Shown here piece after piece: positions 1,211 through 59,405 of a stretch of DNA of 64,000 nt. The notes under the pieces were generated by a model. That model saw nothing but the letters and a program-made list of their open reading frames with translations. It was not told the origin of the DNA and did no database searches. Source of the DNA: Pelagibacteraceae bacterium (GTDB lineage: Bacteria; Pseudomonadota; Alphaproteobacteria; HIMB59); the NCBI GenBank assembly GCA_019651435.1, contig BOYI01000001.1:62001-126000 (forward strand), read 5' to 3'. Both the position numbers and the translations under genes were made by a program. Within the stretch, counting starts at the first letter, position 1. The number at the start of each line of letters is the position of its first letter.

Positions 1211-2293
1211 TTAAACAGTAGTACGTGAAATATTTAAGGTTTTTGAAACAGCAGTAATTTTACCATCTAATTGATCATATGTTTTCTGAATAAGTAAGCA
1301 TTTTTGTTCTTTTAAAGTTGAGTCGTAACATTCTGAACAAGGTGTGTAAGTAGGAGTTGTATTCTTAGTTTTAGTATTTGGAGCACTAGTTACTTGCTTT
1401 TGAAAAAGTTTCATAAATACACTTGATCCTAGCCAGTCTTTTACTTGAACAATTTTATCTGCATTCATATCATGAGCAACATTTTCAAATGGAGTGGTGA
1501 AGATATTGTAAAAATCTTTTGATTCATCTTTGTACAAACCACTTAACATAATTCTTGTATTTGAGTTAACCCCTTCGATTTGCCCATCTTCGTTTATAGC
1601 AATTAATCCAATACTATTAGTGTGAAGATATTCACTTCGTGGATGAAAGGAATAAATATTAGTGTGTTTAAAATTTTCTAGAAAAACTTTTTGTTCAACA
1701 GACTTTGCTGAAAGTTTAACAAGGGCTAATGTATGATCTTGTCGACTGCTTGTATCAGTTGAAGCATCCAAAACCCCAATAATATTTTGATTGTGATCAA
1801 AGATAGGACTTGCAAAACAAGAAAGACCCCCATGGCTTGTAAAGAAGTGTTCACCTCCAGCAACGATGGTAGGTGATTTTGTTTGTAAGCTTAATCCCAA
1901 ACCATTTGTTCCTCGGTATTTTTCCAACCAAACTGAGCCAGGTATAACTACTTTGCTAGCTTGGCTATTTAAAAATTGATTATCGTAAATGGTATCAAGG
2001 ACTACACCATCATTATTAGCGAAAGCCACCATAAAATTTGATCCAGCAATTTGGGAGTAGAGCAATTCTAATTCAGGCACGATGAAATCTCTAATATCTT
2101 GATATTGTTCTTTTATCTCCCCAAGCTCTTTTTGATTTAAAACACTTTCAATTGGGTTTGAATTTGGACGTAGTCCGTGTTCAAAACAACGAACCCAACT
2201 ATCCGCAATGTTCTTATCAGTGAAATCTAGAGAAATACCTCTCTCTTTTTCCAAAGATCGGGCCTGTTCTACTAGACTTCTATAAGAATGCAT
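1211..2293 (-). CDS. AcoR-like GAF/HTH transcriptional regulator without an AAA+ domain
   Basis: Cytoplasmic regulator. Residues 1-200 match the sensory half of AcoR-type activators: an N-terminal helical part with SWVRCFEHGL and a GAF domain with GTNGLGLSL, HFFTSHGGLSCFASPIFD and IIGVLDAST. A PAS-like stretch follows (about 225-270). The C terminus has a Fis-type helix-turn-helix, DGKITAVSKTLNISRTTV. The sigma-54-interacting AAA+ ATPase (GAFTGA, Walker A) found in true AcoR proteins is absent at 360 residues. The stop falls inside the recognition helix (family: SRTTVYKxL); a one-base change would extend it as VYK. It is divergent from the alcohol dehydrogenase and probably controls it. Function inferred from family and position. 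Confidence 0.75.
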   Translation of the reverse strand: MHSYRSLVEQARSLEKERGISLDFTDKNIADSWVRCFEHGLRPNSNPIESVLNQKELGEIKEQYQDIRDFIVPELELLYSQIAGSNFMVAFANNDGVVLDTIYDNQFLNSQASKVVIPGSVWLEKYRGTNGLGLSLQTKSPTIVAGGEHFFTSHGGLSCFASPIFDHNQNIIGVLDASTDTSSRQDHTLALVKLSAKSVEQKVFLENFKHTNIYSFHPRSEYLHTNSIGLIAINEDGQIEGVNSNTRIMLSGLYKDESKDFYNIFTTPFENVAHDMNADKIVQVKDWLGSSVFMKLFQKQVTSAPNTKTKNTTPTYTPCSECYDSTLKEQKCLLIQKTYDQLDGKITAVSKTLNISRTTV

Positions 2294-2335
2294 GGGAAAA
2301 AGTTATGAAATTATTGATAAATATACAACTTTTAT

Positions 2336-2356
2336 ATTGTTCAAAAAATGAACAAT
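2336..2356. promoter_or_regulatory. Perfect inverted repeat, candidate operator of the AcoR-like regulator
   Basis: ATTGTTCA, five A, TGAACAAT: a perfect 8-bp inverted repeat with a 5-base spacer in the 160-base gap between the divergent regulator and alcohol dehydrogenase genes. Its size and symmetry fit a dimeric Fis-type HTH binding site. No convincing GG-N10-GC sigma-54 promoter was seen downstream, in keeping with the missing AAA+ domain. Confidence 0.5.
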
Positions 2357-2455
2357 TTTTTAAGTTTTTCACAAAAAAAATAAAATTTCACGATCGTGGG
2401 TCGTTGGAGAGAGTAAAAATTTGTAGTTAAATATTTTTACTTTCGGGAGGGATTG

Positions 2456-3511
2456 ATGAAAGCACAAGTATTACATAGTTACGATCCTGATATGAAGCAG
2501 GACGTTTGGGTAAAAGAGGAAGAAGTTCCTAACCCAAAATTAGAAAAATCCACTGACGTTATTGTGAAGATTGGTGCAGCTGGTGTTTGCCGAACAGATT
2601 TACATATTATTGAGGGTGTATGGAAACATATCCAAGATCCAGATGATAAACTTTTACCTTGCGTAATGGGCCATGAAAATGCTGGTTGGGTAGAAGATGT
2701 TGGAAGCGATGTGGAAGGCTTCAAAAAAGGTGACCCAGTCATTTTACATCCGCTAATTTCTGGTGGCACTTGTTTAAACTGCCGTCGTGGTCATGATATG
2801 CACGCAGCTGATGGTGCATTTCCAGGTTTGAACATTAAAGAAGGTGGCTACTCTGAGCTTTTACGCACAGGTGTTAGAAACCTTATCAAACTTCCAACAG
2901 TTTTAACACCTAAAGATGTTGCTCCTTTTTCTGATGCGGGCTTAACTGCTTACCGTGTCGTAAAGAAAGCAACACGTCACTTATTACCAGGTCAGTCCTG
3001 TGTAGTAATAGGTGCTGGTGGACTTGGGCATATTGCTATTCAGTGTTTACGAGCAATGTGTGCAGCAAACATTATCATTGTTGAAAAATCTCAAACTGCT
3101 CTAGATCATGCAATGCCTTTGGGTGGCGATCATGGCGTCTTGATTGATGGTAATGAAATTGAACGAGTAAAAGAATTAACTAAAGGTAATGGTGCAGAAG
3201 CAGTGATTGACTTTGTGGGTGAGCACGGCTCAACCAAAATGGGTCTTGATATGACTGCTAACGCGGGTTCTTATTATATTGTAGGTTACGGTGAGAAAAT
3301 TGAAATTCTTGCTGTGGACGCAATTATCTCCGAGAAGAGCATCATTGGTAATTTAGTAGGTACATGGGCAGAACTCTATGAATTAATGGAGTTAGCCGAT
3401 AAAGGCCTAGTGAAACTTTCCATGCAGGAATACAAGTTAAGCGAAGCCAACAAAGCACTTCATGATTTGAACACTGGTCAAGTCAAAGGAAGAGCTGTTT
3501 TAGTACCATAA
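2456..3511 (+). CDS. Zinc-dependent alcohol dehydrogenase, NAD-dependent MDR family
   Basis: Medium-chain dehydrogenase/reductase that oxidises an alcohol to an aldehyde or ketone with NAD(P). Catalytic zinc ligands are visible as CRTD (residues 44-47) and GHENAG; the Rossmann motif is GAGGLGH (about 178-184), followed by an acidic end of strand 2 (IIIVEKSQ). The structural zinc loop is reduced: CLNCRRGHDMH is followed by AAD rather than two more Cys. I chose ATG 2456 over TTG 2453 because GGGAGG lies just upstream. The gene stands before the two-ATPase ABC importer and opposite the AcoR-like regulator, so it may oxidise an imported polyol or an alcohol. Substrate not predictable from sequence. 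Confidence 0.85.
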   Translation: MKAQVLHSYDPDMKQDVWVKEEEVPNPKLEKSTDVIVKIGAAGVCRTDLHIIEGVWKHIQDPDDKLLPCVMGHENAGWVEDVGSDVEGFKKGDPVILHPLISGGTCLNCRRGHDMHAADGAFPGLNIKEGGYSELLRTGVRNLIKLPTVLTPKDVAPFSDAGLTAYRVVKKATRHLLPGQSCVVIGAGGLGHIAIQCLRAMCAANIIIVEKSQTALDHAMPLGGDHGVLIDGNEIERVKELTKGNGAEAVIDFVGEHGSTKMGLDMTANAGSYYIVGYGEKIEILAVDAIISEKSIIGNLVGTWAELYELMELADKGLVKLSMQEYKLSEANKALHDLNTGQVKGRAVLVP

Positions 3512-56448: not shown

Positions 56449-58073
56449 TGAACCATTTTGAACAGGGGATGCATAAAAATGATGCAAACTTTGTTCCTTT
56501 AACCCCCCTTAGTTTTCTCGACCGTATCAAAGACGTCTATCCCAATTATGAAGCCCTGATTTACGGCTCTCGCAAATATACTTGGAAACAAGTCTATGAG
56601 CGCTGCACGCAGTTTGCTAGTGCCCTAACGAAAATAGGCGTGGGCGAGGGTGATGTCGTCTCCGTTATGGCGGCCAATACCCCTGAGCTTTTTGAAGTCC
56701 ATTATTCTGTTCCAATGACGGGAGGTGTTGTCAACACCATTAATACCCGATTAGATGTTCGAACCGTTGCCTACATTCTCAATCATAGTGATTGTAAAGT
56801 TTTTATTGTGGATCGTCAGTTTCAACCTGTTGCTGCCGAGGCTCTTCTTCAAGTGGAGCGAGATGTAGTTGTTATTGATATTGATGATCAGCAGGCTGGC
56901 CTAGGAGATGTCCCAGCCATCGGCGAGCTCGAGTATGAAAGTTTTTTAAAGACAGGTGATGTGGGATTTGAATGGGTTCGACCCAAAGATGAGTGGCAAG
57001 CCATTTCCTTAAATTATACTTCTGGTACCACAGGTAATCCTAAGGGCGTGGTGTACCATCACCGAGGATCGTATTTGATGTCCATGGGAAGTGTGAGCGC
57101 TTGGAATATGCCGAACCGACTAACTTATCTCTATACCGTTCCCATGTTTCACTGTAATGGATGGGGCTATCCTTGGACTCTCGCGATGCTTCACGCTCGC
57201 GTTGTATTTATTCGCAATATTATCGTCAAAGAAATTTTTGACTTAATCGATCAGTATCAAGTTACTCACTTTGGCGGAGCGCCAATTGTTTTAAATATGA
57301 TCGCCAATGCCCCAACAGAAGATCAAAAAGCATTGAAAAATAAAGTTTATGTGATGACGGCAGGAGCGCCACCGCCTAGTAGTATTCTTTTAAAGATGGA
57401 GTCCTTGGGATTTGAGGTGATGCACGTCTATGGTTTAACCGAGACCTACGGCCATGTGGTTCACTGTGCATGGAATGAGGACTGGAATGATTTGCCTGAA
57501 GAGCAACGCTCAGAGAGAAAATCCTATCAGGGCGTTCGATATCCTCATACCGAAGTCGTCGCCGTTCTAGATCCAGCTACACTTCAACCCGTCCCAGCCG
57601 ATGGCTCCACTATGGGCGAGATTATGATCCGAGGAAATACCGTGATGAAGGGCTATTATAAAAATGAGGATGCCACTAAGGATGTAATGAAGGATGGCTG
57701 GTTTCACTCAGGAGATCTTGCAGTTATCCATCCCAATGGATACATCCAAGTTAAAGACCGCTCCAAGGATATAATCATTAGTGGAGGAGAGAACATCTCT
57801 TCAGTGGAAATAGAAAATATCGTCACGAAACATCCTGCTGTTTCCTTAGCAGCGGTTGTTGCCCGACCTGATGAAAAGTGGGGGGAGACGCCTTGCGCTT
57901 TTATTGAGTTAGTGGAAGGACAGCAAGTCGAAGAGGAGGAATTGAAAAAGTTTTGCCGAGAGCACTTAGCTGGATTTAAAATGCCTAAGACTTTTGTCTT
58001 CCAAACACTGCCCAAAACTTCAACGGGTAAAATTCAAAAGTTCGAACTTCGCGAAGCCGTTAAGCGTCTTTAG
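56448..58073 (+). CDS. Acyl-CoA synthetase (AMP-forming), medium-chain/DmdB-like group
   Basis: Activates a carboxylic acid to its CoA thioester. AMP-binding block YTSGTTGNPKGVVYHH, YGLTETYGHVVH, the hinge GDLAVIHPNGYIQVKDRSKD, IIISGGENISSVEIE and the catalytic Lys in TSTGKIQK. 541 residues, intact. FNxWGYPWTL-type block (MFHCNGWGYPWTLAM) is shared by medium-chain fatty-acid ligases and by DmdB, which activates methylmercaptopropionate in marine bacteria. Coupled to the beta-oxidation fusion, so fatty acid use is favoured; DmdB activity is possible. Confidence 0.88.
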   Translation: MNHFEQGMHKNDANFVPLTPLSFLDRIKDVYPNYEALIYGSRKYTWKQVYERCTQFASALTKIGVGEGDVVSVMAANTPELFEVHYSVPMTGGVVNTINTRLDVRTVAYILNHSDCKVFIVDRQFQPVAAEALLQVERDVVVIDIDDQQAGLGDVPAIGELEYESFLKTGDVGFEWVRPKDEWQAISLNYTSGTTGNPKGVVYHHRGSYLMSMGSVSAWNMPNRLTYLYTVPMFHCNGWGYPWTLAMLHARVVFIRNIIVKEIFDLIDQYQVTHFGGAPIVLNMIANAPTEDQKALKNKVYVMTAGAPPPSSILLKMESLGFEVMHVYGLTETYGHVVHCAWNEDWNDLPEEQRSERKSYQGVRYPHTEVVAVLDPATLQPVPADGSTMGEIMIRGNTVMKGYYKNEDATKDVMKDGWFHSGDLAVIHPNGYIQVKDRSKDIIISGGENISSVEIENIVTKHPAVSLAAVVARPDEKWGETPCAFIELVEGQQVEEEELKKFCREHLAGFKMPKTFVFQTLPKTSTGKIQKFELREAVKRL

Positions 58074-58275
58074 ATTTATTTAAATTTTTAAGATCTTTTT
58101 CCTGATCGATGATCCTCATGGACTTCAGTCTTTTAAAGCAATTATAGCAAACCATATTTTGGTTATGCTCAATGAGGTTTTGAACTTTTTGAGGAGACAT
58201 GTGCAGTTCGGATTGTATATATACACCGTCCATCGGTGAGAGCTCACTCTCGCAGTATTTGCAGGACTCAGCCAT
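58060..58275 (-). CDS. Small zinc-ribbon protein
   Basis: 71 residues, function unknown. CKYCESELSP near the N terminus and MVCYNCFKRL about 33 residues later give two CxxC pairs for one zinc. A basic tail (LKNLNKSKDA) follows. The 3' end overlaps the acyl-CoA synthetase by 14 bases on the other strand. Lies three bases after the photolyase-related gene and is probably cotranscribed with it. Confidence 0.55.
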   Translation of the reverse strand: MAESCKYCESELSPMDGVYIQSELHMSPQKVQNLIEHNQNMVCYNCFKRLKSMRIIDQEKDLKNLNKSKDA

Positions 58276-58278
58276 TAA

Positions 58279-58674
58279 TTAATATCTTAAGTTTTTCTTA
58301 ACCTTGTTCCAATATTGAAAGAAGCGTTTAGCGGGCTGAAGGTAATTATCTGTTGATAAAAAGTAGTCGGGTAGAAGTTCTAAGCTATGATTTTGCTTCA
58401 TTTTTTGAAAAAGTTCTTGATACATTGGGCGAAATGTCGACTTGGTGATAATGGAGGAGATAGGGTTTTGGAGATGAATTTCTGCAATAATATCAAGGGT
58501 TTTGCCCTGATAGATCTCGGCTCCCGCTTGTTCGGCTAGTTGATATCGATACATCAGAACCTTATCACTGATTTCATATCCCTCCTGAATTTCTGGGTCA
58601 ATGATATAGACCGCCTGTCCCTCCAGATGGTCGGGGACGCGCATAAATTCATCGTAGAGATAGATCAGGTTCAT
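58279..58674 (-). CDS. Stand-alone photolyase-type N-terminal (Rossmann) domain, short form
   Basis: 131 residues. IYLYDEFMRVPDHL, VYIIDPEIQEGYEISDKVLMYRYQLAEQAG and IYQGKTLDIIAEIHLQNP follow the alpha/beta plan of the photolyase N-terminal domain (strand with IDPE, then RxxxLAE-type helix, then a strand and helix pair). It overlaps the separate FAD-binding-domain gene upstream by 4 bases (ATGA). In ordinary photolyases the two domains are one chain in the reverse order. I infer that the two products work together. The family call for this short piece is by pattern and less sure. Confidence 0.6.
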   Translation of the reverse strand: MNLIYLYDEFMRVPDHLEGQAVYIIDPEIQEGYEISDKVLMYRYQLAEQAGAEIYQGKTLDIIAEIHLQNPISSIITKSTFRPMYQELFQKMKQNHSLELLPDYFLSTDNYLQPAKRFFQYWNKVKKNLRY

Positions 58675-59405
58675 AGATTGGGAAATAACCTCGCGCTGAT
58701 TTCTTCGTAGCTCCCATCAATCTCTTGGTTTTGTTTAGGGTCAATAGAAAGGGTTTGGTGGCAGTATTTGTGGACGTTTTCCAAATTGAAAATATAGGGC
58801 TTACCGGCAAAGGTACTGGCAATCCACTGCCAAGAAAAATTATTACTAGCAAGATCACCATCGAGTAAATGAGTCATAAAAAATTTAGCACCCGCCTGCC
58901 ACTTAACTCGGCGGAAGTGAACCACATAAGAGGCTACATACATCCGGGCGTGATTGTGAAGATAGCCTGTTTGCTTTAACTCTTGAATAAAAGAGTTGAT
59001 CACCTGTGTGGGTGTCTCTCCTTTTTCAATATCTTCTGGGAGATCATCTAAATAGTCACTAGACTTAAAACCTGTTTTGTATTCTTCTACATCTGTCCAC
59101 AATTGATCGGGGTGATGATAAGCATAGCTTCGCCAAAAATCTCTCCAGGCTAGTTCTTGAATAAATTTTTCACTTTCTTGAAAATTAAATTTATCTTGAA
59201 TGATATTCAGTAATTCTCTGTTTTGAATAACCCCGTGTTTAATGTGAGGAGACATTTGGGAAATGTGCCCATTGAGGAAGTTGCGAGTTTTCGCGTATCG
59301 ACTAGGATTGAAATTTTGAAATTTTTGAAGTGCATCCTCGCGAGAGGGCCAAGTGGGCTGGGATGAAGATTGAGGAAATAAATCTTGCTGGCTCTCTATT
59401 TTCAT
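58671..59405 (-). CDS. Stand-alone FAD-binding domain of the photolyase/cryptochrome family
   Basis: 244 residues, containing only the helical catalytic FAD-binding domain. SPHIKHGVIQNRELLNII, ELAWRDFWRSYAYHHPD, the FAD/DNA block HNHARMYVASYVVHFRR, then THLLDGDLASNNFSWQWIAS and FAGKPYIFNLENVHKY are present and intact. Full photolyases have about 470 residues with an N-terminal Rossmann domain, which is missing here and lies in the next gene instead. No frameshift joins them: frames are intact and the ATGA overlap is clean. May repair UV-induced dimers or act as a light sensor. Confidence 0.85.
   Translation of the reverse strand: MKIESQQDLFPQSSSQPTWPSREDALQKFQNFNPSRYAKTRNFLNGHISQMSPHIKHGVIQNRELLNIIQDKFNFQESEKFIQELAWRDFWRSYAYHHPDQLWTDVEEYKTGFKSSDYLDDLPEDIEKGETPTQVINSFIQELKQTGYLHNHARMYVASYVVHFRRVKWQAGAKFFMTHLLDGDLASNNFSWQWIASTFAGKPYIFNLENVHKYCHQTLSIDPKQNQEIDGSYEEISARLFPNL

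Follow-up and report, generated by a model that had tools for sequence, protein, structure and literature searches.

A probable two-subunit photolyase in an alphaproteobacterium, with the FAD-binding domain encoded first and its small partner domain encoded separately

The closest described counterparts of the locus treated here are the phr4/phr5 genes, which occur in all marine Synechococcus as a photolyase split in two and in reversed order, with a fused form, phr6 (Haney et al. 2022, PMC9426592). Synechococcus RS9916 survived UV-C less well when phr4 was disrupted, and an E. coli phr mutant survived it better when given phr4/phr5, a protection that was not significantly light-dependent; the same study predicted a (6-4) photolyase and considered heterodimerisation as well as frameshifting for the two genes (PMC9426592). 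The short photolyase-like proteins (SPLs) are a named class (Xu et al. 2021, here as cited in PMC9649867 and PMC9178010), proposed as photolyase/cryptochrome ancestors without the N-terminal domain (PMC9649867). In NewPHL (Phr7), an N-terminal FAD domain is followed by a C-terminal Z-domain (PMC13274461, PMC9426592).

The window, that is, the whole stretch of 64,000 nucleotides that was analysed, holds two overlapping genes that bear on all of these, followed 3 nt on by a third small gene:

58671..59405, minus strand: gene 1 (P0001), 244 aa, predicted catalytic FAD-binding subunit of the short photolyase-like (SPL) type
58279..58674, minus strand: gene 2 (P0002), 131 aa, predicted stand-alone photolyase N-terminal-type alpha/beta (Rossmann-like) domain
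58671..58674, minus strand: ATGA overlap of the gene 1 stop and the gene 2 start, read from the sequence
58060..58275, minus strand: gene 3, 71 aa with CxxC...CxxC, beginning 3 nt past gene 2, possibly a zinc-ribbon protein

An earlier note on this DNA had read the pair as a photolyase split into two coupled genes in reversed domain order, an intact FAD-binding domain of 244 residues running through an ATGA overlap into a separate gene of 131. That reading holds: the frame at 59405-58671 (minus strand) is open and matches PF03441 FAD_binding_7 (E 2.2e-27, residues 80-212), and the N-domain-type gene follows downstream in its own open frame at 58674-58279 (minus strand). The overlap, consistent with translational coupling, is identical in all genus loci read across the junction, and the order 1-2-3 is kept within the genus. 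We think it likely that genes 1 and 2 are two subunits of one photolyase, most likely a heterodimeric light-driven CPD type; heterodimer formation, CPD specificity and light dependence are what we infer for the pair.

The FAD-gene-first order and the separate photolyase-domain gene are shared with the split Phr4/Phr5 of marine Synechococcus and Cyanobium, of which a fused version, Phr6, also exists, and in the window, too, the adjacent downstream gene encodes a DNA photolyase-type alpha/beta domain. The cyanobacterial genes lie 7 bp apart and carry Fe-S cysteines, whereas the alphaproteobacterial pair overlaps by 4 nt, is without these cysteines and has a third small gene after it. By homology the same two domains make up class I CPD photolyases such as E. 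coli Phr and the A. nidulans enzyme, but on one chain and with the alpha/beta domain first. NewPHL has its catalytic domain first, as here, but is a single gene; in gene 1 no fused Z-domain follows the catalytic part, and a gene of its own encodes the second domain. The window pair is an alphaproteobacterial case of an already described split, reversed photolyase. Of the earlier note's view that the separately encoded partner is unusual, the reversed split has proved real and the novelty has not, phr4/phr5 having been published in 2022 (PMC9426592). What is new here is the breadth of the pairing, the existence of unlinked cases, and the prospect that SPLs may not truly lack an N-terminal domain.

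Gene 1 resembles the SPLs, as had been proposed: its product of 244 residues matches PF03441 and had no PF00875 match in the Pfam search, so that the chain is without the N-terminal alpha/beta domain. Its match to A. nidulans photolyase 1owl is strong (phmmer E 9.3e-22), with solved photolyases matched down to about 1e-21. Positions aligned to lesion and FAD contacts of the A. nidulans enzyme are largely retained: E84, W87, N151, M155 and D182 align with E283, W286, N349, M353 and D380, and D184, N188, W192 and W169 with D382, N386, W390 and W367 (A. nidulans numbering partly from PMC9426592). Two of the three classical triad tryptophans are aligned, the distal one, A. nidulans W314, falling opposite S115 in a poorly aligned stretch. 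The rest of the contact-residue numbering is general background, and N151 and M155 we take to be CPD-type rather than (6-4)-type residues. Since the lesion and FAD residues, these two included, are largely kept and two of the three triad tryptophans align, a heterodimeric CPD photolyase is favoured. The C-terminal Fe-S pattern CxxC...C, which most SPLs of Cyanobacteria and Acidobacteria have, is absent from P0001 and its genus; these cysteines are an optional SPL feature, the absence of which does not exclude gene 1 from the class. On the tree, class I photolyases form a clade separate from the SPLs (support 100/100).

In the proposed enzyme gene 1 would be the catalytic subunit, binding FAD and the UV lesion and using light-driven electron transfer to split cyclobutane pyrimidine dimers. 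The alpha/beta domain, in ordinary photolyases the N-terminal part of the same chain, would here come in trans from gene 2, probably packing on gene 1 so as to close and stabilise the FAD site. An antenna chromophore on this domain is possible; FO synthase (cofG), whose presence would have hinted at an 8-HDF antenna, was not found in the genome, which is only 69% complete. Through the ATGA overlap, synthesis of the two subunits would be coupled and near-equimolar. A light sensor, that is, a cryptochrome-like signalling complex and not a repair enzyme, is an unlikely role for the pair: the genome does carry at least one intact full-length class I photolyase and another family member, so that repair may already be covered, but the lesion and FAD contact residues of CPD photolyases are conserved in gene 1, no signalling gene adjoins the pair, and the cyanobacterial homologues give UV protection (PMC9426592).

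The identity of gene 2 was less readily recognized. P0002 alone found nothing significant in searches of Pfam, NCBIfam and PDB, and a first partner profile of nine sequences gave chance-level PDB matches only. A profile of the genus partners found distant homologues within the class, in every case with an SPL gene immediately upstream. In the wider partner family, 30 of the 46 aligned members match PF00875 DNA_photolyase (best E 2.4e-7), as against four matching Usp, and hhalign joined the family to canonical N-domains over the whole domain (probability 97.1, E 6.2e-11). The subfamily of the window partner aligns with the rest of the family at a probability of 99.2 and directly with canonical N-domains at 7.8%, which is not significant; because direct matches are not significant, the tie of P0002 to the photolyase N-domain runs via the wider family. 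The AlphaFold (AF2) model of gene 2 (pLDDT 87.1) has a five-stranded alpha/beta fold. With this model Foldseek gave weak E-values, the KdpD USP domain coming first (0.012) and photolyases and cryptochromes filling most of the top rows; in VIA-align the first 25 rows were photolyase/cryptochrome entries (Z 10.8 to 9.2), aligned mostly over their N-terminal domain, and the KdpD USP domain scored Z 9.2. Profiles and predicted fold together indicate homology between the small-protein family and the alpha/beta domain at the N-terminus of photolyases. The earlier note had taken the partner for a photolyase-type Rossmann domain, to be checked by structure prediction and profile search, and both bear this out, the former with a fold related to photolyase N-domains and the latter, for the window's own subfamily, by way of the family.

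It could still be supposed that gene 1 is a photolyase on its own and gene 2 a separate HUP/USP-like protein, merely co-transcribed. The KdpD matches would suit this, and the SPL studied by Xu et al. in 2021 reportedly repaired CPDs by itself, which may make the partner dispensable; yet we consider the supposition improbable, given the photolyase N-domains in the top VIA-align rows, the dominance of PF00875 over Usp, the fusions and unlinked co-occurrence described below, and a confident two-domain model. That model was made for L118, a Nostocales locus, with SPL and partner (some 265 and 135 residues long) as one chain and the single stop read as Q, a modelling device and not a claimed protein. 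The joined AF2 model reached a pTM of 0.89 and a mean pLDDT of 91, with both domains mostly above 90 and the linker disordered. Since unsure packing would by our own estimate give a pTM of about 0.6, the model implies a confidently placed domain interface. Structural aligners, which are bound to chain order, confirmed the FAD domain of the joined model.

Genes 1 and 2 were both present in 41 of the 52 genomes of the genus and both absent in the other 11. A scan of 84,980 species genomes with the SPL alignment, from which the best 80 of a larger number of further SPL loci were taken, brought the total to 85 loci, including a few genomes counted twice because two tools led to them (e.g., L073 and L093) and spanning Alpha- and Gammaproteobacteria, Cyanobacteria, Acidobacteria and Chloroflexi. 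Among the matches listed, the partner lies directly downstream of the SPL gene at 68 of the 85 loci and is unlinked at 13, all of them Nostocales; one further locus is fused and three are at contig ends. Whole-genome search found the partner elsewhere in 13 of the 13 unlinked cases (once as a contig-end fragment). SPLs have been described as being without the N-domain, whereas nearly every locus examined here has it in the next gene or at another place in the genome. The pairing, whose conservation the earlier note had put forward as a check, is thus kept both within the genus and across several phyla. Because the arrangement is widespread and sometimes unlinked, two partner proteins are favoured over an accidental split.

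Programmed frameshifting, making one polypeptide from both genes, has already been suggested in print for Synechococcus phr4/phr5 (PMC9426592) and would sit well with the constancy of the ATGA overlap in the genus and the existence of natural Deinococcus fusions, but it is highly improbable here: the partner is unlinked in 13 Nostocales genomes, and outside the genus the gap between the genes ranges from about -44 to +226 nt, in no constant frame. Any frameshift would have to be lineage-specific, and the same observations favour separate subunits. The dN/dS of genes 1 and 2 is 0.06-0.21 (comparisons with unsaturated synonymous sites only), and all three genes are well below 1 against close relatives. 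With both frames open and conserved in relatives, the overlap constant and dN/dS low, chance open reading frames or a frameshift error are excluded for the pair, in agreement with the earlier note's claim of a frameshift-free region. Since the genes are conserved in 41 genomes and under purifying selection, a split by sequencing error or pseudogene formation is ruled out.

Gene 3, which the earlier note had not mentioned, is conserved beside the pair across the genus, was not found adjoining it in other lineages, and had no match above cut-off in family searches. The genome also has a rhodopsin gene, which fits a sunlit habitat, and its named relatives come from uncultured marine Alphaproteobacteria and from SAR116-cluster single-cell genomes. 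At locus L161 of the same genome, which lies outside the window (G000:C1:443500-447000; 1168-1716 and 2200-2646, minus strand), a gene related to PhrB-type photolyases appears to be in fragments; its counterpart in many genus members is an open frame of ~500 aa, and either pseudogene formation or faulty assembly may explain the fragments. One genome of the genus where the pair is absent (G008) encodes a 380-aa FAD-domain protein with a C-terminal extension, NewPHL-like (L160:1926-3068, plus strand), possibly a case of one reversed photolyase replaced by another; sequence comparison detected no match between its C-terminal region and the partner family.

Fusions of the two domains occur in the same reversed order. 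On Deinococcus plasmids both are on one chain, FAD domain first (partner HMM E ~1e-36), and a protein from a Burkholderiales MAG (L152:2974-4170, plus strand) carries, fused behind its SPL domain, a divergent C-terminal domain that resembles the partner (hhalign 74%). In the SPL tree, where many deep forks are unresolved, the Deinococcus and Burkholderiales fusions fall at two places among split forms, and the split is therefore probably the older state within SPLs. Whether the SPL class overall is a two-subunit photolyase, its alpha/beta domain nearly always in trans and its split old, with at least two independent later reversed fusions, we judge to be evenly balanced.

The small-protein family, of which the one annotated separate copy among those examined, in Deinococcus sp. 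QL22, is called merely hypothetical, gains a likely function. Should the broader reading of the SPL class be true, SPLs would not be domain-lacking ancestors, but would either keep a pre-fusion state of cryptochromes and photolyases or derive from an ancient fission. If the N-domain is nearly always supplied in trans, the argument for SPLs as ancestors would need restating, and the pair would offer a concrete two-protein system for studying how the domains were joined.
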